Assembly: GCA_937127445.1 (NCBI GenBank)
Contig: CAKZLY010000013.1
Coordinates: 62,001 to 126,000, forward strand
DNA from: Eximiradius sp.
GTDB taxonomy: Bacteria; Bacteroidota; Ignavibacteria; Kapaibacteriales; UBA2268
Length of the DNA: 64,000 nt
Direction: 5' to 3'
Positions 33,156 to 60,109 of this stretch are shown piece by piece; positions within the stretch are counted from its first letter, which is position 1, and every line of letters begins with the position of its first letter. The notes under the pieces are model-generated. The model did not search any database, had not been told where the DNA came from, and saw only the letters and a list, made by a program, of their open reading frames with translations. The position numbers were made by a program, and so were the translations under genes.

Positions 33156-35762
33156 TCACCTGACGACAACAACCCTTTTGTTCGCAAGGAAAGAACCATT
33201 GCGAAGAACAACAAAATACACACCGCTCGGAATGCTACTTATATCAAGTTTAATTACGCTGTCTGGTGAATTGTGAACCTGGCGAACAAGCAAACCTCCG
33301 TTTTGGTTGTAGAGTTCAATTTCTACGGTCCCGCCTGAAAGTTCACCGTATGAAATAAACAGTTCTTCCGTTGCTGGTTGTGGAGTGATTGTCAGAGAAG
33401 TAGTTTCATATTCCACAACACCTTTGAGCATAAGAATTGCATCTGTTTCGTATCTAAGAGTTTGTTGTAGTTCTCCAACTGATAAATTACGTGTTTCTGC
33501 AATTTGAAGACTGCCTATTGCCTGATCTTTACGGCTCCATACCTTTACAATAAGTTCCTCGCCTTCGTAAGCACCATCTTTTTCTGGTGTAAAATCATCG
33601 TTGCCCCAAACGACCACACCACGCGATCCTTCCTGCCATACACTTGAACCTACAAGCAAGCCATCGCGAGTGAAAATGCCTACTTCGTCGCCATCTTGAA
33701 TATTTGAAATTTCCATCGGAATTACTGCGGTTTTACCTGTGATATGATTTTTTCGGATAAATACGGATGGCTCAATAAAACTGTTCTTTGATGTAACTGT
33801 TTTAGTTGCTGAATTAGCTGGATATACTAATCTTGCACCTTGTATCATTTTTATCATATATCCTTTTCCTGGCTCTAATGTTTGCAAAGTATTGAAAAAT
33901 GGCGGATGATATACTTGCCCATAGATGGACTTCACCTGCAATATTTTATTTAATATGCTTGATAATGCAGATGTCAATGACATCGAAGAAGTCCTTGGGT
34001 AAGGCAACCAATACCAATTCGTAGATAAAAATATTGGCAAAGCCTGGGGGGTAATCTTAATTCCATATATTGGCAATGTTGCCTGGCTGGACAGACGAAG
34101 CTGATAAGCGTGAAATCTATTCCACTGGCTAAGTGATGATGAAAATGGCGGAGAATAAACAAGTCCATAGTTATTTCTCATTATCTGCAATTTTTGAGAT
34201 ATAGGGGACATTAAGTATGAAATGTTTAATAAATCAGGTAAAACATAACTAGAAATCATATTCCATCCAGTATTTAAGGAAATATTGTGCGTTATTTTTA
34301 CTATTGCACGAATGGTATCAATCAAAGTGATACCGTTCGGTTGGTAAGTGCTCAAACCTGATGTAATATTGAAATCGGCGTAGTGTTCGGATAATGTTTG
34401 AGCGTCCCAGACTTTAATAATATATGTTTCGCCCGAAGAAAAACCCTCTTTTGTATTTTGCGTATAATCATCATCTCCCCAAACAACTATACCAAAGTTT
34501 TGTCCATTCCATATCATATATCCGGCACATTTCTCAACGCTTTCATCAAGACAAAACACACCAATAGCATCTCCATTTGAAATGTTCCTATCGTCAATTT
34601 TATATACTCCGTTTGGGTTTAATCCAATAACTGCATAATTGCCCGTATTATTAGTATAATTCCAATTATCCGGAAGCGGAATTGAAAGGGTTGTAAAACT
34701 CCACACCGAAGACCAAGCTGATGTGCCATTCGAATTTGATGCTCTCACTCGCCAATAATACGTCGTGCTATACGATAAATTGCTCAACTGCCGGCTTGTC
34801 CCTGTTGTTTGTTCATCTATCAATGTTGTGCTAAACGTATTGCTTGCTGACACCTGCACCTGATAACTTGTCGCATTCGATGAAGCCTGCCATTCTAATG
34901 TCGGTGATATCGATACACCGCTTGCATTGTTCGCTGGAGACAATAACACCGGCACCGATAGCGGTGCTTGCTGCGTTGTAAAACTCCACACCGAAGACCA
35001 AGCTGATGTGCCACTCGAATTTGATGCTCTCACTCGCCAATAATACGTCGTGCTATACGATAAATTGCTCAACTGCCGGCTTGTCCCTGTTGTTTGTTCA
35101 TCTATCAATGTTGTGCTAAACGTATTGCTTGCTGACACCTGCACCTGATAACTTGTCGCATTCGATGAAGCCTGCCATTCTAATGTCGGTGATATCGATA
35201 CACCGCTTGCATTGTTTGCTGGAGACAGCAAATTTGGAACACCTGGTTGTGGAGGAGCTGGAATAATTGCACCATTGATAAAATTTAAATTAACAGAACC
35301 ATACAATGTGCCAAAATTATTATCAACTAGGGTCTCCGTTAGCCCAGATGTTCCCCAGGTTAGAGGGACTGTACCTGTGCTATTGTAATAAACATTGATG
35401 TAGAACAAAACATAACCGTTTGGAAAACTAACATCGTTGAAATTTGAAACCATCCAGGTGTTGCTAATGATAGTTGGATCGTACTCCAAATTACCCTGCC
35501 ACTCGTTAGGATTTGTTAATGAACCATACGAAAAACCGACATTTGCGCCTGTTTTAGTAATACCGCTGGTATGAAAAATATAAAATTGTCCCACACCAAT
35601 GGCATTTGTACCATTAGCACCACTAATACTTATTGGAATTGAAATTAATTGCCCCGGCGCCGCTTGAATTGTTCCAATTGTAAGAGTAATTGTATTCTGC
35701 GAGAACAGATTTGCCGGCATCAAGTAAAATAATATCAGCAGAGGTATTACAATTTTTTTCAT
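33156..35762 (-). CDS. Secreted cohesin-like / FnIII protein with T9SS type A sorting domain
   Basis: 868 residues. A signal peptide (MKKIVIPLLILFYLMPANLFSQ) is followed by a beta-rich domain (about 24-170). Its pattern TLTIGTIQAAPGQLISIPIS resembles cohesin domains. Two nearly identical fibronectin-III-like repeats of 95 residues follow (about 180-365), then a middle region with two copies of a WNxxxxGIVVWGDDDYT-like block. The C-terminal 80 residues form a T9SS type A sorting domain (PQPATEELFIS to GVYFVVLRNGSFLANKRVVVVR). It is exported across the outer membrane and probably anchored at the surface. The ligand is unknown. Its 5' neighbour carries a dockerin-like end. Confidence 0.8.
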   Translation of the reverse strand: MKKIVIPLLILFYLMPANLFSQNTITLTIGTIQAAPGQLISIPISISGANGTNAIGVGQFYIFHTSGITKTGANVGFSYGSLTNPNEWQGNLEYDPTIISNTWMVSNFNDVSFPNGYVLFYINVYYNSTGTVPLTWGTSGLTETLVDNNFGTLYGSVNLNFINGAIIPAPPQPGVPNLLSPANNASGVSISPTLEWQASSNATSYQVQVSASNTFSTTLIDEQTTGTSRQLSNLSYSTTYYWRVRASNSSGTSAWSSVWSFTTQQAPLSVPVLLSPANNASGVSISPTLEWQASSNATSYQVQVSASNTFSTTLIDEQTTGTSRQLSNLSYSTTYYWRVRASNSNGTSAWSSVWSFTTLSIPLPDNWNYTNNTGNYAVIGLNPNGVYKIDDRNISNGDAIGVFCLDESVEKCAGYMIWNGQNFGIVVWGDDDYTQNTKEGFSSGETYIIKVWDAQTLSEHYADFNITSGLSTYQPNGITLIDTIRAIVKITHNISLNTGWNMISSYVLPDLLNISYLMSPISQKLQIMRNNYGLVYSPPFSSSLSQWNRFHAYQLRLSSQATLPIYGIKITPQALPIFLSTNWYWLPYPRTSSMSLTSALSSILNKILQVKSIYGQVYHPPFFNTLQTLEPGKGYMIKMIQGARLVYPANSATKTVTSKNSFIEPSVFIRKNHITGKTAVIPMEISNIQDGDEVGIFTRDGLLVGSSVWQEGSRGVVVWGNDDFTPEKDGAYEGEELIVKVWSRKDQAIGSLQIAETRNLSVGELQQTLRYETDAILMLKGVVEYETTSLTITPQPATEELFISYGELSGGTVEIELYNQNGGLLVRQVHNSPDSVIKLDISSIPSGVYFVVLRNGSFLANKRVVVVR
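34690..35227 (-). repeat. Tandem 285-bp repeat inside the FnIII region
   Basis: The 253-bp core at 34690-34942 recurs at 34975-35227, a period of 285 bp (95 codons). The two copies differ at only a few bases, including CCATTCG versus CCACTCG and TTCGCT versus TTTGCT. Near-identity at silent positions means recent duplication or gene conversion of a fibronectin-III-like module. Confidence 0.9.
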
Positions 35763-35800: not shown

Positions 35801-37783
35801 TTATGGAGTGTAGCTCCCATTAATATCACCAGAGCAAAGCGACTGAATACTGAGAGTAACATTTGCACCATTTATTTCAACACTAGTAGGATAGAAAACA
35901 TAATTAGGAGCGGTCCAAGTATATGGCTGCAAATTATTCAATCGCCTTCTTATTTGATTTGCATCGACTATATTAACTTGATTGTTTACGTTTATATCAG
36001 CAGCAATTAATCTGACACCAGTCAGTGGTGTAAACGACGATTGCACATTATTAAGATGTAACCGGATTAAGTTAACATCGACTATACTAACACCTCCCCA
36101 ATTTTTTGTTGTTGTAATATCTAATGAATAGTTCCCATTTGACAAACCTGTAAATATAAAGTAGCCAAGAGAATTTGTGGTGGTTTGTGTAATTTGCTGC
36201 CCTGATGAATTTAACAAGCGAACCACGCAGTTGTCCATAGGAGTTTGAGCAGTATTTGCATATTTTATTGTACCTTCGATTTGATAAAGTTGCTGCACAG
36301 GCGTTGAAAACTTTCTCTTAGCAGACCAGGCACTTATCTGAGACAGATTGGCACTTCGCACTCGCCAATAATATGTTGTTGCAAATGAAAGAGTATTTAT
36401 CGAATAGTTTGTTGAATTAGTGGTATAATTTATTAAAACAGTTGAGAATAAACTATCAGTGGAAATCTCAATAATATAATTTTCAGCATTAGTTGAAGTA
36501 TTCCAAACGAAATTGACAGTATTCGAAAGCAAAGTAGAATTATTTGCAGGCGAGACTAAATCAGGCGGGAGCAAAATGGGTTCGGTAGTAAATGTTCTAA
36601 CACCAGCCCACAAAGAGGAATCACCACTCAAATCGTAAGATTTCACACGCCAATAATACAATGTATTAGTATCCAGTTTTGATTGTAGGAGAATAGTTTT
36701 CGATGAGTTATTAGCAGTGTCGTTAAACGCCAGAATAGAAAAGTTACTAAATTTAGAGACTTGAATCCTATAATAAGCTGCATAAGGATCATTTGACCAG
36801 ATAAATTGAGGTAAAAGAGAAACATTTGTTGCTCCATCAATGGGTGAAATTAAAGTAGGTGGCGATAAAGTATATTGTGCAAGAATTCTGCCACTGGCTC
36901 CAACTACCCAACCTTTTTGCGGGGAAACAAATTTAACACTATTAAAATTTATCGCTTGCTGCAAGTTCACATTTTGGGCAAACCATTGCGAACCTCCATT
37001 TGTTGTTGCAAGAATTATTCCTCCATCACCAACTGCCCAACCTCTGTTTATATCAAGAAAATGAACTCCATAAAGCCAATTGCTTGTATTCGAAGTTTGT
37101 TGGAACCAATAAGTGCCCCCAGTAGTAGTTTTATATATTACACCACCACCACCGACTGCCCATCCATAGTTGTAGTTTACAAAATGAACGCTATAAAGTG
37201 GCAAGGTCCCACCTATTGATTGGCTGAACCAGTTTGTTCCACCATCATAAGTCAATAATATTGTTCCATTTTGCCCGACGACACAACCGAAATTAGCATC
37301 AACGAAATGAACACTTAGAAGGATTAGATTAACATAGCTTGTCTGCGAAACCCAACTGCTTCCACCATTAGTTGTTTTACGAATTGTGCCACCTTGACCC
37401 ACAACCCAACCTACTTGATCATTTACGAAACAAACACTGAAAAGTGTGTTGCTTGTCCCACTTGCCTGCGAAATCCAACTTGCTCCTCCGTCCGTTGTTT
37501 TGCGGATTGTGCCATTCTGACCCACAACCCAACCTACTTGATCATTTGCGAAACAAACACTGAAAAGTGTGTTGCTTGTCCCACTTGCCTGCGAAATCCA
37601 ACTTGCTCCTCCGTCCGTTGTTTTACGGATTACACCAGCATTTCCGACAGCCCAACCCATAGTTGAATCTAAAAAGAACACATCTCTCAGCTCTTCTGTT
37701 GTGTTGCTTTGTTGGACTATCCAACCTGAATGCAATTGATTATAAGCCAAAATTGCTACAAGCAAGACTATTATTGTTCTCAT
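35801..37783 (-). CDS. Secreted YCF48-repeat / FnIII protein with dockerin-like C-terminus
   Basis: 660 residues from the ATG at 37783, preceded by AAAAGG; an upstream ATG at 37813 would put ten residues before the signal peptide. After the signal peptide come about seven 41-residue repeats with GWVVGQNGTIRKTTDGG cores, as in YCF48-like beta-propellers. Two or three FnIII-like domains (SPANNSTLLS) follow. The C-terminus has a carboxypeptidase-like Ig fold then two dockerin-like segments: VSIVDVNLIRLHL and DINVNNQVNIVDANQI, whose D596, N598, N600 and D607 fit a calcium loop. No T9SS domain is seen. It ends 39 bp before the cohesin-like gene. Confidence 0.75.
   Translation of the reverse strand: MRTIIVLLVAILAYNQLHSGWIVQQSNTTEELRDVFFLDSTMGWAVGNAGVIRKTTDGGASWISQASGTSNTLFSVCFANDQVGWVVGQNGTIRKTTDGGASWISQASGTSNTLFSVCFVNDQVGWVVGQGGTIRKTTNGGSSWVSQTSYVNLILLSVHFVDANFGCVVGQNGTILLTYDGGTNWFSQSIGGTLPLYSVHFVNYNYGWAVGGGGVIYKTTTGGTYWFQQTSNTSNWLYGVHFLDINRGWAVGDGGIILATTNGGSQWFAQNVNLQQAINFNSVKFVSPQKGWVVGASGRILAQYTLSPPTLISPIDGATNVSLLPQFIWSNDPYAAYYRIQVSKFSNFSILAFNDTANNSSKTILLQSKLDTNTLYYWRVKSYDLSGDSSLWAGVRTFTTEPILLPPDLVSPANNSTLLSNTVNFVWNTSTNAENYIIEISTDSLFSTVLINYTTNSTNYSINTLSFATTYYWRVRSANLSQISAWSAKRKFSTPVQQLYQIEGTIKYANTAQTPMDNCVVRLLNSSGQQITQTTTNSLGYFIFTGLSNGNYSLDITTTKNWGGVSIVDVNLIRLHLNNVQSSFTPLTGVRLIAADINVNNQVNIVDANQIRRRLNNLQPYTWTAPNYVFYPTSVEINGANVTLSIQSLCSGDINGSYTP
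37396..37626 (-). repeat. Tandem 123-bp repeat coding YCF48 modules
   Basis: A unit starting GACCCACAACCC at 37396 recurs at 37519, a period of 123 bp (41 codons). Over roughly 105 bases the copies differ at only about one to three positions. The encoded units read SWISQASGTSNTLFSVCF with VGWVVGQ. Other repeats in the gene are more diverged, so these two are recent. Confidence 0.85.
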
Positions 37784-37974
37784 AAAGAAGCCTTTTGTAG
37801 AAATATAAATCAATAACCCTTACGATAAATTTTCTTAATATCGTATAATTCTTAGACTGATTATCGTAAAATTTATTCTATTCTTTAATATGAATGACCG
37901 TATGATTTTTCAATAATTTAATATGCATTAAAACTAACTGATTTGAGAAAAAGGAAGAGATGTTATCATTTTAT

Positions 37975-37999
37975 AAAAAATGGGCTGTAGATACAGCCC
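37975..37999 (-). terminator. Terminator of the six-gene 47295-38024 operon
   Basis: On the minus strand GGGCTGTA pairs with TACAGCCC (37999-37992 with 37989-37982) around a tiny loop, more realistically a 7-bp stem with a 4-base loop. Then come CA and six T (37980-37975). It lies about 25 bases beyond the stop of the CHASE-PAS kinase gene. Confidence 0.75.
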
Positions 38000-38023: not shown

Positions 38024-40219
38024 CTATGTTCGCTTAACCATTGGAAGAGTGAGCATTACTAAGTTGCCCTCTTCGCCGCCAAAAGTTTCGACACTCATTG
38101 CACCATTCATCCGACGAATTATAGATGATGCTTTAGCAAAGTTCAGAATTACATCTTGCTTGTCCAAGCCTATCACATTTATAATATTATTCTGATTGTC
38201 TCTGTAAATTTTGATTAATTCAGCAATATCTCTATTGCCGGGTCCAAGGATTTGAAGTTCGACGGCACCGTCGTAAGTATTTTCCTGCACAACTACATCA
38301 AACGAAACATTATCCATATCAGTAGTTAAAGCATCATATATTAATACCAGCGATTTTTCAAGAAGAGACGGGCTAACCACAGCAGTTGAAGTTGTTTCCG
38401 ATGTATCAATATTAAGGAATATTTTTTCTTTTCTATCTTGCTTTTTATAGACTTCCAGAGCATTGTATAGAGCTGGCTCTATTTTGGTTGTAACGAATCT
38501 ATCGAGCGAGGATTCGCCCTGGTCCAGAGCAGCATCGACAATATCAGAAACAAACGTGAATATTTCCTCCGAGCTTTGCTCTGCATATTGCAGGTAAGAC
38601 ATCATTTCATCTTCTGTTTCATAGAATTTGTTCGAGAGAAGTTGCAGGTAACCGATAATACCGGTAAGTGAGTTACGAAGCTGGTGGCTGAGCTTAATCA
38701 TAAAGAACGATTTAGCGTGGCTTGCTTCGAGAGCGTATTGCTCAGCAATTTCGATTTGCTTGCGTTTGATTTCTGCTTCTTGTTCGGCAAGTTTTTCGAG
38801 CGTTACATCACGGCCAATTGCATAGACAAAGCCATCAGATTTAGATGTTGTCAGGTTCCAGCTTACCCAAACAAGTTCGCCAGAACGGTTTTTCATCTGG
38901 AAGTCTGCTTTTTCGGTGTGTTCATCTTGGGAATTATTAATAATGTTTATTAGTTGATTAAAATCTTTTTCTTGCATAAACAAGTCGGCGAAATTCAAAG
39001 CTAGAAATTCTGTAATCGAGTAGCCGAACATACCTTGCACAGCGGGGTTGATAGTTTTCCATTTCCCCTGAAAATCAATAACGCCGATAACGTCTTTCGT
39101 TGCTTCCAGAATTCTGCGTTGCGAACGCGTAATTCGTTCTGCAATATCTTCGGCTCGGGCACGGCTTGTAAGAACCGAGATAATGAAACCAAACAGGAAG
39201 AAGCTAAGCAAAAATGACGCTGCAAATGATAGTTCAGGCAAATATTCTTGTAACTTCCCGCCATAATTCGGAATAGTATAGAAATGACCAACGAACTGCT
39301 TATTCCCTACGTTGAGTTTCACTTCGTCGGTTAATATTGGCTTGAAGCCAGTTTTAAGCAATTTAGCATTGTCGGAAGCAAAAATTTCTTCCTGCTTATT
39401 ATCATCAATTTGATAATACTTGAAAATAACTGATGTATCCGTTGGGAAAAAATCGTCTTTTTCACCTTTGAGAGCTGTTTTGAAAAAGTTTTTAACGTCT
39501 ATTTCCATTACAAGCGAAGCATAATATTTCGAACGTCGGCTATCTAGGGTTGAGACGTCTGCATCTTGCTGATAAATAGGTAGAATAAGGCAGAACCCCA
39601 TCGTATCCTGCCTGATGGGGAACACTTTTGTAGCTATCAATTGGTTGTCGTCGCGGGCAAGTTCTATACTCGAAGAAATTTCTGGAATAGTTGAGTAGTC
39701 GAACCCAATTCGATGAATGTTTTTATTGTAATCTACACAATGTAGAACTGGATAGTAGAATTTTCTGTTGCCGGGTGGATTCAACTCATAATCATAATAC
39801 CCCTGAGAGCGAGCAGAAAAAACAAAATTCGCAATATTATTACCATCAACATAAGGAACGTAGGATAAGCTCAAAATAGATGAGTAGGTCTTCGCGGGAA
39901 CTGTTCCATATAGTTCGAAATAGTCGCGAACAACTTCAACATTTTGATAATAAAGACCGTGAATAGATTGCAACACTTGCTTTTGACGGTCGAGGTAGTT
40001 TTCAATACGAGTAGCGATAGAGCTTACAGCTTTGTCGAATTCCTGACGGCGAGTGCTCTCAACATTTTGCTTAACAAAATCCCTTATGGCAAAGCTTGCA
40101 GCCACAAGAATTATCAAAATTATATAAGCAACATAAGTTCGCCGAAAATCGAACAGGATAGATTTCCTTTTCTGCCCCGCCTGCTTGACGACTATATCAA
40201 AAGATGTATCATTTGCCAT
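38024..40219 (-). CDS. CHASE-PAS histidine kinase with degenerate ATP-binding domain
   Basis: 731 residues. Two transmembrane segments (about 29-46 and 330-350) flank a periplasmic CHASE domain, recognisable by YYPVLHCVDYNKNIHRIGFDY and LARDDNQLIATKVF. A PAS domain (365-475) and a coiled segment lead to the H-box with H512 in KLSHQLRNSLTGIIGYL. The C-terminal half lacks a clear N-box asparagine and DxGxG motif (it reads LLEKSLVLIYDALTTDMD, then QILGPGNRD), so ATP binding is doubtful. It is the last gene of an operon, 12 bp after a response regulator that is its obvious partner. Confidence 0.82.
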   Translation of the reverse strand: MANDTSFDIVVKQAGQKRKSILFDFRRTYVAYIILIILVAASFAIRDFVKQNVESTRRQEFDKAVSSIATRIENYLDRQKQVLQSIHGLYYQNVEVVRDYFELYGTVPAKTYSSILSLSYVPYVDGNNIANFVFSARSQGYYDYELNPPGNRKFYYPVLHCVDYNKNIHRIGFDYSTIPEISSSIELARDDNQLIATKVFPIRQDTMGFCLILPIYQQDADVSTLDSRRSKYYASLVMEIDVKNFFKTALKGEKDDFFPTDTSVIFKYYQIDDNKQEEIFASDNAKLLKTGFKPILTDEVKLNVGNKQFVGHFYTIPNYGGKLQEYLPELSFAASFLLSFFLFGFIISVLTSRARAEDIAERITRSQRRILEATKDVIGVIDFQGKWKTINPAVQGMFGYSITEFLALNFADLFMQEKDFNQLINIINNSQDEHTEKADFQMKNRSGELVWVSWNLTTSKSDGFVYAIGRDVTLEKLAEQEAEIKRKQIEIAEQYALEASHAKSFFMIKLSHQLRNSLTGIIGYLQLLSNKFYETEDEMMSYLQYAEQSSEEIFTFVSDIVDAALDQGESSLDRFVTTKIEPALYNALEVYKKQDRKEKIFLNIDTSETTSTAVVSPSLLEKSLVLIYDALTTDMDNVSFDVVVQENTYDGAVELQILGPGNRDIAELIKIYRDNQNNIINVIGLDKQDVILNFAKASSIIRRMNGAMSVETFGGEEGNLVMLTLPMVKRT

Positions 40220-40231
40220 ATTGCAAAACTT

Positions 40232-40609
40232 TTATTTTTGTTTAATAATATTTTCAACATCAGAAACAAAGGTAGTTGTGTTTATCGGTTTAGGAATATA
40301 ACCCGTAAAGCCAATATTAACGAATTTCTGTCTATCCTGAGTAGTTGCAAATCCAGTAATAGCAATAATAGGAGTTGCTGAATGAATATCAATTTGCCGC
40401 ACTTGATAATAAAGGTCAGTGCCATTCATATCTGGCAAAAGTATATCCATAATAATCGCTTTCACAAGATTAGCCGATAACCACTCAACTGCGGGCTTGC
40501 CTTCTTCAAAATCTACTGTTTCATAACCAGCACGTTTCAATAAAGTACAATAAAGCTTCCGGATTGGAGTATTGTCTTCGATTACACAAATCAATTTTTC
40601 TACATTCAT
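40232..40609 (-). CDS. Single-domain response regulator
   Basis: 125 residues from the ATG at 40609, with GGAG nine bases upstream; a TTG at 40624 is rejected. It is a stand-alone receiver domain: acidic E11 D12 pocket, phosphoacceptor D55 in IIMDILLPDMNG, T85 in AITGF and K107 in YIPKP. With no output domain it must act by protein contact or in a phosphorelay. It lies between the OmpA gene (20 bp upstream) and the CHASE-PAS kinase (12 bp downstream), so it probably connects that kinase to the surface proteins of the operon. Confidence 0.9.
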   Translation of the reverse strand: MNVEKLICVIEDNTPIRKLYCTLLKRAGYETVDFEEGKPAVEWLSANLVKAIIMDILLPDMNGTDLYYQVRQIDIHSATPIIAITGFATTQDRQKFVNIGFTGYIPKPINTTTFVSDVENIIKQK

Positions 40610-40629
40610 AAAAATTATCTCCAATTAAT

Positions 40630-42009
40630 TTATCTTGGAACAACAATTATTTCGACACGCCTATTCTTACGTTGATTAGCAGGAGTATCGTTCGGAGCAA
40701 CAGGGATGAGAGCGCCTCGGCTTGTTGCAAGAACACGATTTGCCGGTATTCCTTTTTGATTAACCAAATAATTTCGCACATTAGTTGCGCGGGTAGCAGC
40801 ACGCTGAGTGTTCTGTGGCAATGTTCCTTGGTTGTCGGAGTGTCCAGTAATACGAATTTCAAAGTTTGGATTGGCTCGCAAATAATCGGCGAGCAGGTCC
40901 AGATATTCTATAATCTGTGGGCTTAGATTTGTTGTTTCTGGCTTATCAAAACTAAATGCAACCATCTGATTCGGGATAATCCTGCGACGAACCTGCCCAG
41001 TGATTTCACGTTGGCGAAGTTCTTCCTGAAAAATTGGAGTAGTAACTTCTGCAACTTCTTCAATTATTTCAGGCAATTCAACCATTGCCAACCACGCTGC
41101 TACAAGCGGCTCGGGCGAACGAAAACCAGTAAATTCCACACCACTCACAGAAACCTGAGCTAAGAACTGCGGAGGCTCGACGTAAGTTTCATCAAATCGC
41201 AGTGTATCAAATTCTCGGTGGTCTTTACCAAATTTTATTGCAAAACCAACTTTAAAGCCAAGAGTTTTCCATGAAGAATTAAGTTGCGATAGTGCTTTTG
41301 TTCCGCCATTGATAGCAACGTATGGATTGCCTATAAAACGTGCTTTGCCTGCATAATCAGCAAGCAGAAACTCATAACCCGCACCTAAATTAAATTCCAG
41401 ACGCACATTAGGTTTTATGCCCGGAACGCGGACAAATTCATCAATTATTCCAGAATTAATATAACGCTTTGCTTGCTTTGCTGTTGCACTGAGGTTAAAT
41501 CCGATATCAAGTCCACCGTAGTAATACAAACCGCCAATATCTGAAAAATACTTTACTTGCGGCGATAGGATTATATAATCAAGAACTGATCTATATTCAT
41601 ACCTGGTCCTCAAACTATCGTCCATTTGATTTGTTCGAGTGGAAAAGGCTTTGCGGTCGAGCAACGAAATGCCAAGCGAATAGGCTAATCTTTCATTTCT
41701 GGGCTTATATTCGGCCATTACACCAAAATAAAAGCCCCCGCCGAAAGTTGAATTGAAACTAATTTGTGGATTATATAAAGTGTCTTTGATAAGTGGATTT
41801 ATCTTGCTGTATAAATCGCCGAAAAACAAATTAATGTTCGGTCCGCCGAACACTCCAAACCACCAATCACCGTAGTAGCGTTCTACCTTCAAGGTGTCCA
41901 GCGAAGGCAAAGTATAAAATTCTCGCAGGTAACCATCAGGAATTTGTGCATTTGAGAATGAAATCGAAAATAGAGTAATTAGCAAATATTGTATTTTTTT
42001 TCTTATCAT
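40630..42009 (-). CDS. OmpA-family outer-membrane protein
   Basis: 459 residues. A signal peptide (MIRKKIQYLLITLFSISFSNAQ) precedes a barrel-like half (about 45-275) with repeated glycine-aromatic strands. A linker of about 60 residues leads to an OmpA peptidoglycan-binding domain. Its core is ITGHSDNQGTLPQN, with ATNVRNYLVNQKGIPANRV and NRRVEIIVV at the end. It links the outer membrane to the cell wall. The ATG overlaps the stop of the WD40 gene by one base (TAATG). In T9SS bacteria OmpA-type proteins such as PorE anchor the secretion ring; a similar role is speculative. Confidence 0.88.
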   Translation of the reverse strand: MIRKKIQYLLITLFSISFSNAQIPDGYLREFYTLPSLDTLKVERYYGDWWFGVFGGPNINLFFGDLYSKINPLIKDTLYNPQISFNSTFGGGFYFGVMAEYKPRNERLAYSLGISLLDRKAFSTRTNQMDDSLRTRYEYRSVLDYIILSPQVKYFSDIGGLYYYGGLDIGFNLSATAKQAKRYINSGIIDEFVRVPGIKPNVRLEFNLGAGYEFLLADYAGKARFIGNPYVAINGGTKALSQLNSSWKTLGFKVGFAIKFGKDHREFDTLRFDETYVEPPQFLAQVSVSGVEFTGFRSPEPLVAAWLAMVELPEIIEEVAEVTTPIFQEELRQREITGQVRRRIIPNQMVAFSFDKPETTNLSPQIIEYLDLLADYLRANPNFEIRITGHSDNQGTLPQNTQRAATRATNVRNYLVNQKGIPANRVLATSRGALIPVAPNDTPANQRKNRRVEIIVVPR

Positions 42010-43889
42010 TAATTATTTGTAATAAATCTTGTGTTTAAAATAAATCCACTATCAGAAATTAAATTAACAAAATATATGCCATCGGACAAATTCATTTTTC
42101 GTAAAATTTGTGTAGTCCCGCTGTGTAAATATATATCTTCCTGCTCGCTAATTTGCCTTCCAGTTATGTCGAAAATTTGCAATTTATACATTGCTTCTTC
42201 TACTAAAAACAAATTAAGAGTAAGAATATTGTTTGAATATTTTGCATTAATCTTAGGTTTATCGAAAACCAGAATTTCTTTGTCGCTATCCCAGAAACAA
42301 TTAGAGATGACCTTAACAATCGATGATTCACCGAAGAAATAGTAAAAATCGGGATTAGTTGGAATTATCGTATCAATTGTAATGATAGACTTACCAATTT
42401 GCGAACCTAAGGCAAGAAAATTTAATTTTTCAGAAACTCCATTAGACACCTCGCCACTCATATTATACTGTATTTTGCCGGGTATTAGTTCATTATCCCA
42501 GTAGAGCAAATTGTGAGGGTAATTGGCGTGAAGTTCGAAGAAATATCTATTGCGAGGCATTTTACTCGGTTGATAATTGTGACTTACTTTAAGTTCAACA
42601 ATTTTCTTTTCACCGAATTTGGCTTGAATATCTTGCAGATGGACAGCAAACTTATACCCACAATTCAGTGAAATAGTGTCCTGCTGCGAAGTTATTTCAG
42701 GTAATTGCAATAAAATGAACGAGCCATCACGAGCCGAAGCAGCAAGATATTTTCCATTACTTGAAATTGTAGAATAAATGAACTGCGAATTGTATCTATG
42801 TTGGTAGAAAAGCGAACCTGTGAGCAAATCCACGAAATTCAAATTACTATCCAAAGAACCAGAAGCAAAATACTTCCCGTTTTTCGGTACAACAACCGAA
42901 CGAACGTGCCCACTATGCAGTTCTATTTCGCGGGACAATGACAAATCTGGGATCAGCCACGAACGCACTTTTCCGTCTGCTGCTGCCGATAAAACCAACG
43001 GAGCGCCACCAGCAAAATCAACATCAAATACAACAGTATTTTGATTGCCCAGACCGTGCGAGCCGAACTTACGTATATCGTCTGTAACCGTATTTATTAG
43101 ATGGAGCGAACCGTTGTATGCACCGCAGAGTAGGCTATCGCCCGTTTGAGAGAATGCGATGCTATAAATCTCATTTCCCTCAGCTGACGAATCAACCCGA
43201 TAAGTCTTTACAAAATCAAACTTCTGATAATCGAAAACACCGACAAATCCACTATCTGCACCGAAAGCAATGATTTTTTTTGTTGGATGGTGGGCAATTC
43301 TTCGCACATTACCGGAAAAAAGACCTATCCCAATATCTTTTTTTTCTATGCGAGCAGCATCGAACATATAAATCCCGTTTACTGTACCAACAAAAAGTGT
43401 GTCCGCTGATGGTGTCGGCAGAACGAAACGAATTTGCCCAAATTGTTGCAGATTTATTGTTTTAATAAGTCGGCGATTTGCAATATCCCAGAAATTCACC
43501 TCATTTGCGTTGGCGGTAACAAGTGCAAAATCTTGTACTGCAAAAAAAACTGAACGTATTTCCGAAGTATGTGCATTTTCTCTGTGCCAGAGCACAACCG
43601 GTTTGGAATAATTTTCAAAATTTGCAACAATTTGTAAATTTTTAGATTTCACATAGGGAACTCGAAACAAAAAATAACCATCTTTCGATGGAATTCTTCC
43701 AAAAAAGTAACTTACGGAATCATCGAAACCGGTAATATCAACAAAATTGAAACTATTAGGCTGCAAATTTAAATAAACTGTATCATCAACGAAGTAGATA
43801 GGACGAGGATTGGTTACAATAATACTTTGAGAATGCAGGATACTTAAATGTATCAGCAAAAGACAATATATTATAAGAAATGATTTCAT
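42009..43889 (-). CDS. Secreted WD40-repeat protein with T9SS type A sorting domain
   Basis: 626 residues. A signal peptide (MKSFLIIYCLLLIHLSILHSQ) leads to an N-terminal PEGA-like part, then about seven WD40-type blades (90-390), for example GHVRSVVVPKNGKYFASGSLDSNLNFVDLLTG. A beta-rich linker follows. The last 80 residues fit a T9SS type A domain: NNILTLNLFLVEEAMYKLQIFD, then GIYFVNLISDSG. The propeller presumably mediates protein contacts at the surface. It starts 5 bp after the upstream gene and shares TAATG with the OmpA gene. Confidence 0.82.
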   Translation of the reverse strand: MKSFLIIYCLLLIHLSILHSQSIIVTNPRPIYFVDDTVYLNLQPNSFNFVDITGFDDSVSYFFGRIPSKDGYFLFRVPYVKSKNLQIVANFENYSKPVVLWHRENAHTSEIRSVFFAVQDFALVTANANEVNFWDIANRRLIKTINLQQFGQIRFVLPTPSADTLFVGTVNGIYMFDAARIEKKDIGIGLFSGNVRRIAHHPTKKIIAFGADSGFVGVFDYQKFDFVKTYRVDSSAEGNEIYSIAFSQTGDSLLCGAYNGSLHLINTVTDDIRKFGSHGLGNQNTVVFDVDFAGGAPLVLSAAADGKVRSWLIPDLSLSREIELHSGHVRSVVVPKNGKYFASGSLDSNLNFVDLLTGSLFYQHRYNSQFIYSTISSNGKYLAASARDGSFILLQLPEITSQQDTISLNCGYKFAVHLQDIQAKFGEKKIVELKVSHNYQPSKMPRNRYFFELHANYPHNLLYWDNELIPGKIQYNMSGEVSNGVSEKLNFLALGSQIGKSIITIDTIIPTNPDFYYFFGESSIVKVISNCFWDSDKEILVFDKPKINAKYSNNILTLNLFLVEEAMYKLQIFDITGRQISEQEDIYLHSGTTQILRKMNLSDGIYFVNLISDSGFILNTRFITNN

Positions 43890-43894
43890 TAAGT

Positions 43895-45208
43895 TTATTT
43901 ATTCCGAACATACAGTACTTTAACAATAGCGCGAGAGAGTTCAACACCCGGATCGTTAATCGGATATGCAATAAAAACAATGTCGTAGCTTCCCTGAGAA
44001 GTAATCTCCGAAGCTTTGAAGTAAGTTTCGTGCCAGCCGCGAGGAGTAATGCGCGATTCGAGCAAATCGTTCGAAGAATTATCACGCAAAGTTGCTATCT
44101 GCTTGCCTGAGCGGTCGTAAACGTAGCAGGAAAGCCGAACATCATCGCGGACAAAATAGCGAACTTTTGTTTCAGAAACAAAAGGGTTTGGGTCTGCTTG
44201 GGCAAATTCTATAACAGCATTTGGAACAGGAACCAGGCGAGTAGCAAGTTTGATAATTCTATCGTTCTCGTCTTGATAATAAAGTCTGTAAATGTACTCC
44301 ACACCACGATATTCAATATCATCTGTAATTATGCCGTATTCTTTGCCCGTTGGTGAACTGTATAGACCAGTTAGCATACTGGAAAATTTCGGGTCGTTCC
44401 AATCAGCAACAGTGACAGTAAAGGCAGCGTCCGGAATATCTTCCAAATTCATATCTGCCGAAGGAACACGCACTGCACGCTTGATAATAAAGCCCTTGGT
44501 TTTGTATTCAGAGTGGGTTTTGAACCAGAGTTCCACTTTTAAGTTTCCGACGTAGTGAGCAAAGAAGTAATCAAGCGATGTTGCAGGTGGTTTGGTGGGG
44601 TCGTCTTTATATGATACAAGAGAAGTAGAAACATCTCCCATTTCAATGTTATCATCTGTTTCAACATCTAAAATCTCTATTGGAATAGGATCTCCATCAT
44701 GATATTTAAAAGCAACTGCCTGATAATAATTCGTGGGACGCTTCCAATAAATTTTTTCTTCAATTGGCGAACCATCCCGTGTTGAAAGACGAAAACGACC
44801 AATTTTCACACTCGTATCAGGTGGTATTAGAAGCACATCATTAAGTGTTTCGGGACCCAAAACAATTACTTGAATCCTATCTTTCAGAGTACCAGTGAAA
44901 ATTTTATATGGACGACCACCAGGAAGTACAACGGGCAATTCGCTTGTTTGAGGTATCATTTCAAGTTTCAAATTAGTGTAATCATAATCTGGCATATTAG
45001 CAAATTCAAATTGAAATGTAGAATTAGCATAGTACCGCCAGATATCGCTTGTTCGCTGCATATAAATATCAAATTCAAAAGTGCTTGGAGATGCTTTATA
45101 TGAATTTCTAACAGATGCAACAGCCAGTGTGTCGTCTATAAGCACCTGAGATTGAAGTGAAATAAGCGATAAAATGAAAACACTTAATATTGATATAATA
45201 TATTTCAT
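43895..45208 (-). CDS. Secreted protein with FlgD-like Ig C-terminus
   Basis: 437 residues. A signal peptide (MKYIISILSVFILSLISLQSQ) is followed by a beta-rich region whose segment YYANSTFQFEFANMPDYDYTNLKLEM does not match a family I can name. The C-terminal 90 residues (AQADPNPFVSETKVRYFVRDDVRLSCYVYDRSG and on) resemble FlgD-type Ig domains, close to T9SS sorting domains. It lacks the terminal strand pattern I would require to call one. It overlaps the preceding gene by one base (TAATG) and is 5 bp from the WD40 gene. Confidence 0.7.
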   Translation of the reverse strand: MKYIISILSVFILSLISLQSQVLIDDTLAVASVRNSYKASPSTFEFDIYMQRTSDIWRYYANSTFQFEFANMPDYDYTNLKLEMIPQTSELPVVLPGGRPYKIFTGTLKDRIQVIVLGPETLNDVLLIPPDTSVKIGRFRLSTRDGSPIEEKIYWKRPTNYYQAVAFKYHDGDPIPIEILDVETDDNIEMGDVSTSLVSYKDDPTKPPATSLDYFFAHYVGNLKVELWFKTHSEYKTKGFIIKRAVRVPSADMNLEDIPDAAFTVTVADWNDPKFSSMLTGLYSSPTGKEYGIITDDIEYRGVEYIYRLYYQDENDRIIKLATRLVPVPNAVIEFAQADPNPFVSETKVRYFVRDDVRLSCYVYDRSGKQIATLRDNSSNDLLESRITPRGWHETYFKASEITSQGSYDIVFIAYPINDPGVELSRAIVKVLYVRNK

Positions 45209-47295
45209 TATGGGATAGCCGAAACTCTATTTCTATTGTTGAAGCTAATGTTAAAATCTCGTGTAGTGATAATTCCATCCATATTCATATCGCCGACAAG
45301 ATAGCCATTGAATAAATTATATTCCCAAATGTTTGCATCAGGGATGATAGAGTAAAAATCTCTATCATCAATTCGACCGTTTTCGAAAATACTGCCGTTC
45401 ATTTCGCCGGCAATCAAGGCATAAACAAAACTTCCATCAAGATTTTTATCAACACGTTTCAGCGAAGAAACACCACCCATTACTAAATCAGGTGAGGTAA
45501 AATCTAAACTGCGGGTTACCCCGGGCATAATTGAAACCTGCTCTTTGGTAATTACTGCCAAATGGTTTCTGTGGCGAATTGCAACATAGTAATCGCTGCT
45601 ATCCAATCGGTTTGTCTGGCTATAATTTGCAACTGCGATCACCTCATTACCGTATATATCAACTAAACGACCATCTCGCTTGACAAGGTAAGTGCGAAAA
45701 ATACCCGGTTGAGTGAAGCTTTTGCGAAATTCTACAACCACCCAATCAACTACTGAATCAGGAAGCTGCGTTGTAACGTAGAATTGCCTCATCGGGTCCA
45801 GGTTATACGGATAAATATCAGGTGGAGGAACCGGCAAATAGCCTCGCTGACGAAGGTCGTCCGCCATCGAGCCAAAACGATAAGCACCTTCTAAGAATAC
45901 TTTACCCGCAATCTGAAAAAGTGCAGCCGCAGTACTACCTATTGCGAAATAACCTAAATTGTTAATGTTTGTTGCATAACTAAATGCCCAACCACGAGCT
46001 GTGTCCCATTGCGGTTCGGCAGAAGTTTGCAGATCAACCCAGGAATTTGCGAACCAACTTTGCAATTTTAGGAGCTCAAATTGTAAATTGTTTTGTTCAT
46101 CAAGAGTATCAGTTTGTGAGCGACGCCATCCATAACCGAAAAGCATATTTGTTCCGACATCAACAAATTCGCCTGAGGAATTCTTCCCACGAATTTCAAA
46201 GAAACGGCGAACTTTTGTATTGCCCAAAGGTTGCATCGGGAAAGTTGCTGGACGAACAGTAGCAATCAACTCAGTTATACCATTAGCCGAGTTTTCGTCA
46301 GGGAAAATGGCATAAGTGAATGGATTGTGCAAAAGCATTCTTTCGCCACCGGTACGGACACGAGTAAGCCGCAATGTTCCGCTAATTTCAGCATTTGGAT
46401 TGTTCTCATTATAGACAGGATTTTTTGTGGATGCAATTGTCAGTGTATCTTGCAAAAAAATTCTGCCACCGACGTAAAGGCTATCGTTTACTGCAACATT
46501 TTTATCAATAATCAAGTCACCTGAATTTGCTTGAATTAGTTTTTGCAATGAATTTGCATTTGATGGAAGCTCACCGCTTGCAATAATTGAGCCATTACCC
46601 GAATAGCGAACATCTACGCGCCCTTCAAAAATTGGCTCGACTGATAAACTGCTACCGGTAAAACGTTCGATTTCAGTAGAATCTGCCATTGCGAAATTCT
46701 CGGCTTCCGTATTATTGAGAGTGCCGCGAGTAAGTGTTAGTTTTTCGGTAATCTGAAACCCACCGCTGACTACATTCACGCCAAAAGGATTATCAATATT
46801 TAGACGTGAAAATTGACCATTTGCTAAAATGTTCTGCGGTGCATTATCGTTGCTCAAGCGCAAATCGCGTGGACCATCGTAGCGTGCGTCGCGATTGACA
46901 ACAGTTGAACGTGCTATAACGTCTTCGGGTTGAAGTCCAATCCAGCGAGTAGTAAAATCGGCGCCATCGACAATTATCAACGAATCCAAAACAATCAAAT
47001 TGCGAGTCCGATTGTTCTGATCCTTAAAATCGGCAACAATCTTTTTAGCATTGTTTTTTAGCACAAGTTGATTGTAAACGATATTCGGGACTACTTGCTG
47101 AGAACCTTCGCGTTGCTGCAAAAATTCGACACGACCACCCAATGTATCGGGCAAAGCATTTACCTGCCCATTTTTAACTTTGATAGTTCCTTTGTTGTTG
47201 ATTTTACCACCGGAATTATCCAATACATATTGAGCTGCCATCTGTGTGGTAGCTAATATTATCATTACAACAATATGTATTAGTATTCTTTTCAT
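45208..47295 (-). CDS. Surface protein with dockerin-like C-terminus
   Basis: 695 residues. A signal peptide (MKRILIHIVVMIILATTQMAAQ) leads to an N-terminal module (KINNKGTIKVKN to VPNIVYNQLVLKNN) that is paralogous to that of the protein at 47389. A long beta-helix-like region follows, with GGERMLLHNPFTYAIFP near the middle. The end carries two calcium-loop-like segments: AGEMNGSIFENGRIDDRDF and GDMNMDGIITTRDF, where D669, N671, D673 and D680 form a good dockerin-type loop. No T9SS domain is visible. It is the first gene of the six-gene operon, downstream of a long-loop terminator. Confidence 0.72.
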   Translation of the reverse strand: MKRILIHIVVMIILATTQMAAQYVLDNSGGKINNKGTIKVKNGQVNALPDTLGGRVEFLQQREGSQQVVPNIVYNQLVLKNNAKKIVADFKDQNNRTRNLIVLDSLIIVDGADFTTRWIGLQPEDVIARSTVVNRDARYDGPRDLRLSNDNAPQNILANGQFSRLNIDNPFGVNVVSGGFQITEKLTLTRGTLNNTEAENFAMADSTEIERFTGSSLSVEPIFEGRVDVRYSGNGSIIASGELPSNANSLQKLIQANSGDLIIDKNVAVNDSLYVGGRIFLQDTLTIASTKNPVYNENNPNAEISGTLRLTRVRTGGERMLLHNPFTYAIFPDENSANGITELIATVRPATFPMQPLGNTKVRRFFEIRGKNSSGEFVDVGTNMLFGYGWRRSQTDTLDEQNNLQFELLKLQSWFANSWVDLQTSAEPQWDTARGWAFSYATNINNLGYFAIGSTAAALFQIAGKVFLEGAYRFGSMADDLRQRGYLPVPPPDIYPYNLDPMRQFYVTTQLPDSVVDWVVVEFRKSFTQPGIFRTYLVKRDGRLVDIYGNEVIAVANYSQTNRLDSSDYYVAIRHRNHLAVITKEQVSIMPGVTRSLDFTSPDLVMGGVSSLKRVDKNLDGSFVYALIAGEMNGSIFENGRIDDRDFYSIIPDANIWEYNLFNGYLVGDMNMDGIITTRDFNISFNNRNRVSAIP

Positions 47296-47312: not shown

Positions 47313-47366
47313 AAAAGCCCGGTTTCTCGAGGTTTTGAGTGTTTTTTTTCGATACACCGGGCTTTT
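47313..47366 (-). terminator. Long-loop hairpin between the 47389 and 47295 genes
   Basis: AAAAGCCCGGT (47313-47323) pairs perfectly with ACCGGGCTTTT (47356-47366) across a 32-base loop. On the minus strand the stem ends in GGGCTTTT and AT, so it can terminate the upstream three-gene set. The loop contains an A run and a TCGA, unusual for a simple terminator. Read-through control of the downstream operon is possible. Confidence 0.65.
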
Positions 47367-47388: not shown

Positions 47389-49548
47389 TTATTGATTAAT
47401 TTCAATAATGCCTTCGTTGTTAATAGTACCATTATTTTGAATTGCATTAGTTTCAAGTACTGCTGGGTTTGGACCATAAGGAGTAATCCAGATACCATTA
47501 AATCCAGGATTAGTAGTAAACGACGATTTAGCAGCAATACCTGTTCCAAATGCTGGTTGCATTGTATTTGTATTCAAGTTCTGCAGCGTAACTCCGAGAG
47601 CTGATTTAGTCTTGAATACATAAGTTGCTCCGTTATCTTCGTTGCCAAGGATAAATGCAGCATTTGTTAAGTTAGCTACAACAATTGAATTTGCGGCTGG
47701 ATTTGTACCATAAACGCTTGCTTCAGATGTAGTGTTGCCAGTAGCAGGAGTTCCTGCAAATGGACCAGCAATACCAGCATAAACCATATGGCGAATTTCA
47801 ACATTGTCATCTTCAGATGGGCGAGTACCTTCATCCCAAGTATTCGGATTTGTCCAGCGACCGTCTGTAATTGAGTAGAAAGTAGTCGGACCAGCAGCAA
47901 GAACAATGTCGTTTCCGCTTGCGAACAATCCGATGCCGTTAGGCAAGTTAGCAGTTGCGGTATTACCAATACCAGCAAGTTCAACATAACCAAGAGAAGC
48001 TGCCGTTGCAGCAGTTCTTGTTGGGATTTGGCCAGTACCAACCTTTTCACGAGCTGGCTGGTTGGATGCTTCATACATACGAAGTGATGCTTGAGTGTAT
48101 GGAGCAGTCCAGTTTGTTCTTTCGTCTTCACGATAAGCAGCACGAACAGTCATTGCAAAAGCACCTGTATTGCCGGCATAGCTTAGGTTGATTTTTCTAT
48201 TTACATCAGTAGTTGAGTTATAATCGAATGGATTTTGACCAGGACGAACATTCAATGTAATCGAAGTTGGGTTATCTGCATCGGCAACCAAAGTAACGAT
48301 GGTGTTAGTATTGTTGAAAGTATATGCTTGAGCAGTTGTATTAGTTACACGCGAGAATAGACCAACAACTTCGTTCATACTAGTGTAGGTTGCGGTAGCT
48401 GTTGGAGTGTTCATACGGAAGGTGCCATTATTGGCTGCCATATCAAGATTGCCACCATCAAGCGAGAAATTACCGCAAACGTTAATATCGTTGCCATAAG
48501 ATGCAGTTCCACCAGTTTTAAGTCCAGTACCGGAGAGGAACAAATTACCATAACGTTTGCCATCCTGGTTCAAAGTTGGGAGAATAGTTTGAGCACCACC
48601 GTTATAAGTAATGTTCGAACCGCAAGCAAAGTTAAGATTTGTACCATCGCCATTGTTTGCGATGCTGCTCGAAATAACAAGATTATTACCAGTACCTAAA
48701 TTAAGGACACCTGTTGAGCCGATAGTTGTAGCACCTGCAAATGTAACTGTACCAAGGTTGCCAGCACCTCCATCGTTAGCAGTTAAAGTACCGTTGAGAG
48801 CTAATGTACCATTGAAATTCACAGCACCAGTACCAGTTACATTAAAGTTTGAACCATTTTGCGTAGTAACTGCATCGCTGAAAGTAACAGATCCGGCACC
48901 AGTATTAACAGTACCAGTTCCTTGAACTGTAACAGGAGCCCCACTTGCAAAGGTAGAAGCACCAGCACCAAGATTCAAAGTACCAGCAACTGCAAAATCG
49001 TCTGTTGCATTAACCTGATATGCAGTTACAGTAGTTGCAGCAACAACTGTAGCTTGGCTTGAAGCATTGATAATATAGTATGGATCAGTTGTTGGATAAA
49101 TATTCTGCGAACCACCTGTAGCAGCATAGTAGAATGTGCCTGTTCCAAAGTTTAGCGATGAAGCAGTCGAATAGAACGGATAAGTGGAAAGTTGAGCATA
49201 GCCTGCAAGAGGAGTAGGACAAGCTTCGCCGATAACGCGAATACCGTCCTGCATCACCTTGGAGCCACCCGACACAACAAGTCTCTGATAGTAATAAGGC
49301 TGAACGACCTGATTAGCTGTCGTTGAAGCCCATTCGACAACACCAGGAATAGCGTTAGCCGCGCTTTGACCTAAATTAGCCGAACCTGTAATAGTGGCAT
49401 TTGTAGCTTTCAGCTTTATAACTCCACCACAGGTTGCATTATAATTTCCATTGTTGATAAAGCCTTGAGCAAATAGTTCTATTCCGACTAAATTCAGAAC
49501 TATTGCTGCAAGAAAAATTGTCCAATTTTTTTTCATTCTGTTTCTCAT
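47389..49548 (-). CDS. Repeat-rich surface protein related to the giant 49659 protein
   Basis: 719 residues from the ATG at 49548; ATGs at 49536 and 49587 are alternatives. After a signal peptide the N-terminal module (VIKLKATNATITG to VVEWAST and YYYQRLVVSGG) is paralogous to the start of the protein at 45208. A glycine/threonine/asparagine-rich beta-helix-like part (190-340) follows, with units such as GTLNLGAGASTF. Near residue 560 comes FYSITDGRWTNPNTWDEG, the module found six times in the giant protein. The C-terminus ends in INNEGIIEINQ, with no sorting domain. Confidence 0.75.
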   Translation of the reverse strand: MRNRMKKNWTIFLAAIVLNLVGIELFAQGFINNGNYNATCGGVIKLKATNATITGSANLGQSAANAIPGVVEWASTTANQVVQPYYYQRLVVSGGSKVMQDGIRVIGEACPTPLAGYAQLSTYPFYSTASSLNFGTGTFYYAATGGSQNIYPTTDPYYIINASSQATVVAATTVTAYQVNATDDFAVAGTLNLGAGASTFASGAPVTVQGTGTVNTGAGSVTFSDAVTTQNGSNFNVTGTGAVNFNGTLALNGTLTANDGGAGNLGTVTFAGATTIGSTGVLNLGTGNNLVISSSIANNGDGTNLNFACGSNITYNGGAQTILPTLNQDGKRYGNLFLSGTGLKTGGTASYGNDINVCGNFSLDGGNLDMAANNGTFRMNTPTATATYTSMNEVVGLFSRVTNTTAQAYTFNNTNTIVTLVADADNPTSITLNVRPGQNPFDYNSTTDVNRKINLSYAGNTGAFAMTVRAAYREDERTNWTAPYTQASLRMYEASNQPAREKVGTGQIPTRTAATAASLGYVELAGIGNTATANLPNGIGLFASGNDIVLAAGPTTFYSITDGRWTNPNTWDEGTRPSEDDNVEIRHMVYAGIAGPFAGTPATGNTTSEASVYGTNPAANSIVVANLTNAAFILGNEDNGATYVFKTKSALGVTLQNLNTNTMQPAFGTGIAAKSSFTTNPGFNGIWITPYGPNPAVLETNAIQNNGTINNEGIIEINQ

Positions 49549-49593
49549 ATTGGTACCCAATAATGTATTCATAATAATAATTTTCATCTATAA

Positions 49594-60035: not shown

Positions 60036-60109
60036 CAATTTCCCTCCCGAGTTCAGTATTTTATAATATAAAATTTTGTTCATAAGTTAATTAATAATGA
60101 AATTAGCAA

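Follow-up and report, generated by a model that had tools for sequence, protein, structure and literature searches.

The locus analyzed here belongs to a 64,000-nucleotide stretch of Eximiradius sp. (GenBank assembly GCA_937127445.1, contig CAKZLY010000013.1, positions 62,001 to 126,000; hereafter the window), located in contig C13 of a 2.45 Mb genome that comprises 35 contigs. Six open reading frames (ORFs), all on the minus strand, were confirmed in this region: A (45208..47295), encoding a 695-residue exported protein; B (43895..45208), a 437-residue exported protein; W (42009..43889), a 626-residue exported WD40 β-propeller; O (40630..42009), a 459-residue protein predicted as an outer-membrane β-barrel; R (40232..40624), a stand-alone receiver domain; and K (38024..40219), in which a CHASE domain between two transmembrane segments is followed by a PAS domain, a dimerization and histidine phosphotransfer (DHp) domain and a degenerate domain (38027-38518) resembling the catalytic and ATP-binding (CA) domain of histidine kinases. 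Signal peptides and membrane segments of the encoded proteins were read by eye. The initial annotation of these genes as a tightly spaced six-gene unit ending at a terminator was borne out: A and B, as well as W and O, overlap by 1 base, gaps of 5 and 12 bp separate B from W and R from K, respectively, and the O-R gap measures 5 bp from the TTG start of R or 20 bp from an in-frame ATG at 40609, its likely start. A GC-rich, terminator-like hairpin with a T tail (37982..37999, minus strand), directly 3′ of K, closes the unit.

Conservation of the arrangement was assessed in relatives, whose family and genus designations (f1, g1 and the like) are codes of this analysis and not taxon names. A search with O gave a match in 60/60 genomes, including its own, though many of these matches covered the OmpA domain only. 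Neighbourhoods numbered 46, from 45 relatives with a long O match, the 14 relatives with weak matches being left out at that stage; 13 further stretches, of which B searches had supplied 12, were added later, and 58 loci were analyzed. Locus counts use six-frame ORFs, and one contig-edge row was dropped from each of the B, O-R and R-K counts. O proteins of close relatives were 91-93% identical. Across ten families A and B were adjacent in 49/49 loci, and the gene following B was either O (27) or W (20) in 47 of the 51 assessable loci; W and O adjoined in 21/21 loci, all from f1, O and R in 32/52, and R and K in 28/31. The expected conservation of gene order was thereby confirmed, so that the arrangement is not unique to this genome. 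The unit is at the same time larger than the six genes originally proposed, as P (47389..49587, minus strand), an upstream gene for a 732-residue exported β-repeat protein, adjoined A in 35/41 loci and belongs to the conserved core. Full-length B occurred in 27/34 genomes of the order Kapaibacteriales and in 0/163 other genomes of the class; outside the order, B matches covered the second half of the protein (FN3-CTD) only, among the matches listed. The conserved core is therefore P-A-B-O, to which W and R-K have been added in some lineages only: W was inserted at the level of one family, f1, and R-K is attached to the surface genes in f1 (most genomes), f6 and f9 and is absent or located elsewhere in several other families. 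The residues needed for receiver phosphorylation are intact in R (Asp, Thr/Ser and Lys in 31/31 each). Small R genes were found by six-frame profile search in two loci (L056 and L066), and the same gene occurs in a third (L130).

The most distinctive component of the locus is K. Matches to CHASE, PAS and HisKA domains were obtained, while no HATPase match (PF02518) appeared even at E 0.001, and among 42 HisKA places genome-wide K was the sole one without an HATPase within 600 bp downstream. The candidate phosphoacceptor, His512 (38684-38686, minus strand), lies in DHp and is followed by Gln, as opposed to Glu or Asp in 29/29 other displayed HisKA places. As a control, the D-G-G and G-G columns were invariant in 30/30 aligned HATPase domains of this genome, whereas an alignment of the C-terminal region of K over 30 relatives had no N, G1 or G2 box. 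This region displays instead a conserved pattern of its own (ENxYEGxxEIQIL and YKxNxNNIIxALxxDKxDIxLNLA). Profile comparison with the HATPase domains of the genome by hhalign aligned its second half only (E 3.6e-6, probability 87.5), and the profile of the CA region had no convincing relative among solved structures; the match of its first part to ThkA (E 0.018) fits a kinase origin. A structural model of K, built from three rows and of low confidence (predicted local distance difference test, pLDDT, 48.7), gave kinase DHp-CA chains as its best matches, RetS first (Foldseek E 1.7e-9; VIA Z 12.5 over 148 residues, root-mean-square deviation (rmsd) 3.3, with rows within Z 1 being tied). As judged from these comparisons, K has a histidine-kinase fold whose ATP-binding domain has degenerated. 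The N, G1 and G2 motifs and the His with an acid at +1, by which active HisKA kinases are recognized, thus appear to be missing, and the label 'kinase' given at first has to be qualified to that extent.

A profile search at E 1e-25 detected K in 73/123 Kapaibacteriales genomes, always as a single copy. Among 395 genomes of the phylum, matches outside the order stayed at background level (best 1.9e-22, versus 7.1e-65 or lower for K inside the order); an additional kinase of ordinary type, encoded in one genome of the order, scored 8.6e-21 on the same profile. The GxGL motif was missing in 73/73 K proteins and DxGxG in 72/73, the sole exception lying off the G1 position. The acceptor position held H in 43, F in 13, D in 6, R in 6, Y in 2, and T, L and E in one each, so that the His is replaced in 30/73; at least six changes at this position were counted on the tree, a quick tree with many weak forks. 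An acid at His+1 was present in 2/73. Among three g1 genomes the ratio of non-synonymous to synonymous substitution rates (dN/dS) was lowest in DHp (0-0.01), the part of K under the strongest constraint, and reached 0.05-0.08 in the pseudo-CA domain; with dS near 1, these values are rough. The degenerate domain is thus under purifying selection and is therefore being maintained rather than decaying. Three f3 genomes of genus g29 (G210, G250 and G037) carry a K match with an in-frame stop, where decay of K may be under way after the loss of both R and the acceptor His.

Normal phosphorylation of R by K is unlikely, given the degenerate ATP-binding domain and the repeated loss of the acceptor His, and the pair, judged from its sequences, probably does not signal in textbook manner. 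The proposal that the operon joins surface proteins to a two-component pair accordingly survives in part: a conserved unit of exported and surface proteins with a receiver and a sensor is present, but a normal two-component pair is unlikely, with no ATP-binding motifs detected and the His absent in 30/73. We regard as very unlikely that K is an ordinary kinase whose highly divergent ATP pocket phosphorylates R upon binding of a ligand by CHASE. The CHASE-PAS-DHp architecture, the intact receiver usually paired with K among the loci with R and the kinase-like fold of the model would agree with such an activity, which is contradicted by the missing HATPase match and G1/G2 motifs, by the scarcity of acids at +1 and by the replacement of the His.

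The reading we favour, with a probability of about 0.5, makes K a pseudokinase of the DivL kind, which would read or hold R and be coupled to a surface assembly. What all K proteins appear to have in common is a kinase-shaped docking unit joined to a CHASE-PAS sensor. P and A, as β-repeat proteins, together with B and W, which carry T9SS (type IX secretion system)-type tails, would form a surface assembly anchored to the outer membrane, in which O would provide the barrel and the peptidoglycan anchor. R would be phosphorylated by other kinases of the cell, and the very conserved DHp of K would dock R or its phosphorylated form, R~P. K might then relay state by allostery between the cytoplasm (PAS and DHp) and the periplasm (CHASE), with the outcome that surface assembly would be matched to cell state. 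A variant in which the pair runs backwards seems improbable: R~P produced by other kinases would dock K, CHASE would act as a periplasmic output switching the A-B assembly anchored by OmpA-bearing O, and insertion of the dockerin-like tail of A into the N-terminal domain of B would be a further part.

The closest worked example for K would be DivL of Caulobacter, which, according to passages of the published account, has neither kinase nor phosphatase activity, senses or binds DivK~P and carries Tyr in place of the acceptor His (PMC4211667). Like DivL, K would combine a histidine-kinase fold with the loss of catalytic residues and maintenance under selection, as read from its sequence and model; in both cases there is a PAS domain and a single-domain receiver as partner, a putative one for K on the basis of gene pairing, and many K proteins carry F, Y or other residues where DivL has Tyr. 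There are differences as well. DivL acts on CckA and shows weak binding of TNP-ATP, whereas K has lost recognizable ATP motifs, bears a CHASE domain, is encoded in an operon of surface proteins and belongs to another phylum.

Several observations weigh against the DivL-like reading. The first concerns the 43 K proteins that keep the His, all of which have Asn at +4 (58/73 overall), a combination that might reflect phosphatase action or phosphotransfer by K in the lineages concerned. The main rival to the DivL-like reading is that K acts without ATP, through His and Asn+4, as a sensor-gated phosphatase or a histidine phosphotransferase for R~P, resembling PhyK, RetS or Spo0B/ChpT. We consider this possible, if on balance doubtful. 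Both the invariance of Asn+4 in His-bearing proteins and the strong constraint on DHp in g1 are what such a role would predict, and precedents exist: PhyK is described as functioning with its G1 and G2 boxes mutated and as taking phosphoryl groups from MrrA (PMC5964349, in the passages concerned), and RetS as siphoning phosphoryl groups and dephosphorylating (PMC5992135, likewise in part). Nevertheless, K persists with F, D, R, Y, T, L or E in place of the His in 30/73 genomes, 10 of these loci having an adjacent R, and because of this phosphotransfer via the His cannot be the common function of K. An invariant phosphotransfer His, absent across the 73 proteins as a whole, may still hold for the 43 that retain it. 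Further points against the DivL-like reading are that a divergent pocket of K may still bind ATP, and that the association of R with the acceptor His is not significant, only two supported independent pairs being available on the tree. Among 68 assessable K proteins, 39 had R and the His, 10 had R without the His, 19 had neither and none had the His without R, a pattern that speaks for the DivL-like reading; five of the 73 rows (L263, L264, L266, L269 and L295) were dropped from this count, as their contigs end just upstream of K. Co-loss of K and R, despite strong raw counts, is not put forward as significant, the independent events being few.

Comparison with the proteobacterial systems mentioned above is informative on both sides. 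PhyK and MrrA of Alphaproteobacteria resemble K and R in that a single-domain receiver feeds a histidine kinase-like protein devoid of kinase function, and PhyP has a degenerate CA domain like that of K, according to parts of the same work (PMC5964349). PhyK, however, keeps its CA domain and requires its His, whereas K has lost the CA motifs and many of its orthologues the His too. As for the RetS-GacS system of Pseudomonas, the structures that the K model matched best were kinase-region chains of RetS; unlike K, for which no such partner is known, RetS modulates another kinase. Passages of one study describe inside-out signalling by GacS upon RetS binding and call it the first precedent for a sensor kinase (PMC12148439).

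The remaining points against the favoured reading concern gene linkage. The R-K pair of f8 and f10 (L290, L292 and L294) is separated from the surface operon. In f5, K is found elsewhere in the genome (L279-L281 and L283), R having remained with the surface genes (L074, L077 and L080), and R is not beside K in f3 or in genera g24 and g5. Given the relocation of R-K in f8 and f10, and of K in f5, the pair need not be tied to the surface genes. It can be envisaged that R and K are hitch-hikers, co-transcribed by descent and directed to other targets such as partner-switching proteins. R-K of f8 and f10 lies near SpoIIE-GAF phosphatase genes (Pfam-checked in L290 and L292) and, in L292, near an HATPase_c_2 gene, a setting that suggests a partner-switching output in these three loci. 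The core also persists without adjacent R-K in f2, where R-K is absent from the locus and O lacks its OmpA tail (six loci), and likewise in f4. We hold this alternative to be unlikely, as tight linkage is retained in f1, f6 and f9, and the relocated K of f5 adjoins another OmpA-domain gene: directly 3′ of it lies a gene for 702-741 residues that matches the O profile, with OmpA Pfam-confirmed in L279.

In the LapD-LapG-LapA system an inner-membrane receptor controls a surface adhesin from the inside, and K might work in a comparable manner. The domains and the second messenger involved are different, and no homology is claimed. The dead histidine kinases found to read a receiver or a kinase, namely DivL, PhyK and RetS, all come from Proteobacteria. 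K, from another phylum, forms a family that spans the order with a single copy per genome. Its ATP domain has degenerated, its DHp is nearly frozen within the genus compared, and in many genomes it is held in fixed genetic linkage with a lone receiver and an outer-membrane assembly. Its natural series of acceptor-site residues (His, F, Y, D, R, T, L and E) offers material for probing a kinase fold without catalysis, and the little-studied Kapabacteria gain a defined surface system to test. Literature searches returned no paper joining the themes of histidine pseudokinase, degenerate HATPase and phosphatase, and only a plant review for a CHASE-domain pseudokinase with a response regulator; type IX secretion together with Kapabacteria was not found among the matches listed.

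Among the surface proteins of the window, none of P, A and B matched a Pfam family. The C-terminus of P ends in a conserved N-x-G-x-I-x-N-x-G-x-I-E-I-G-like rung, and no C-terminal domain (CTD) was recognized there. The C-terminal tail of A (45211-45486) is strongly conserved and dockerin/EF-hand-like. The dockerin tail annotated at the outset was found as a Dockerin_1 match in 7/34 members (E 0.01) and went unrecognized in the window protein. B comprises an N-terminal β domain of unproven fold (44639-45139), an FN3-like middle part and a T9SS-type CTD (about 43901-44221). Por_Secre_tail, the T9SS sorting domain, was matched in 19/39 B members (E 0.1), the window protein being unmatched. A model of B (four rows, pLDDT 60.8) displayed FN3-like and CTD-like domains, and its residues 330-436 aligned with the CTD of PorU (Z 8.8 over 93 residues, rmsd 2.4), tied with other β-sandwich rows. 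The genome encodes a SprA_N protein and therefore likely possesses a T9SS translocon, by which B and W might be exported. The dockerin-like tail of A may plug into the N-terminal domain of B. No Pfam cohesin match occurred in 39 B members, hhalign against 23 cohesins of the class gave E 0.016 and a probability of 2.8, and no cohesin was among the listed VIA rows, which barely covered the N-terminal domain, while Foldseek ranked the cohesin-FN3 chain 2w1n 38th. Profiles of A and B had no convincing relative among solved structures. In f7 (L123 and L125), a P/A-like protein of 1491-1497 residues precedes B.

The start of W is signal-like, and its T9SS sorting tail is weak (25.1 bits versus a cut-off of 27). 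Its rate of evolution is roughly threefold that of the neighbouring genes (dN/dS 0.14-0.16 versus 0.02-0.07), which fits an optional, exposed part of the assembly. O carries a C-terminal OmpA peptidoglycan-binding domain (about 40660-40941); among its members, OmpA was matched in 40/46 and OMP_b-brl_2 in 14/46. The co-occurrence of WD40 and OmpA domains had been taken as reminiscent of PorE (PG1058) of the T9SS, in which, as described in one report, TPR, propeller, CRD and OmpA domains are combined in one polypeptide (PMC5053529). Propeller and OmpA domains are indeed present in both cases. In the operon, however, they lie on separate proteins, O has a barrel instead of TPR and CRD, and W is confined to one family. 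O matched the NCBIfam PorE model over the OmpA domain only (34.9 bits versus a cut-off of 600), and the analogy was rejected.

The 93-bp gap between P and A holds a long hairpin (47317..47362, minus strand; −17.1 kcal/mol) followed by TTTTAT, resembling a terminator or an attenuator. Such hairpins were found in 17/25 P-A gaps, versus 4/46 mononucleotide-shuffled gaps. Transcription therefore plausibly begins at A; P, above it, may be either a conserved neighbour or a first gene associated with an attenuator. Promoter-like sites numbered 68 versus 55.5 expected, and a scan of the window found no Rfam or tRNA features. Beyond K the order decays: two downstream genes, both outside the conserved unit, adjoin K in one same-genus relative (L042), and their repeat domains had scattered matches in L045 and L064. 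The product of the first (35801-37813) has YCF48-like repeats and matches dockerin weakly, and that of the second (33156-35762) combines FN3 with a T9SS tail. Upstream of P, a gene at 49659-60083 encodes a 3474-residue exported β-repeat protein whose C-terminal N-x-G-x-I-x-I-G-like rung is the same as that of P, a shared feature that could permit end-to-end stacking of β-solenoids.

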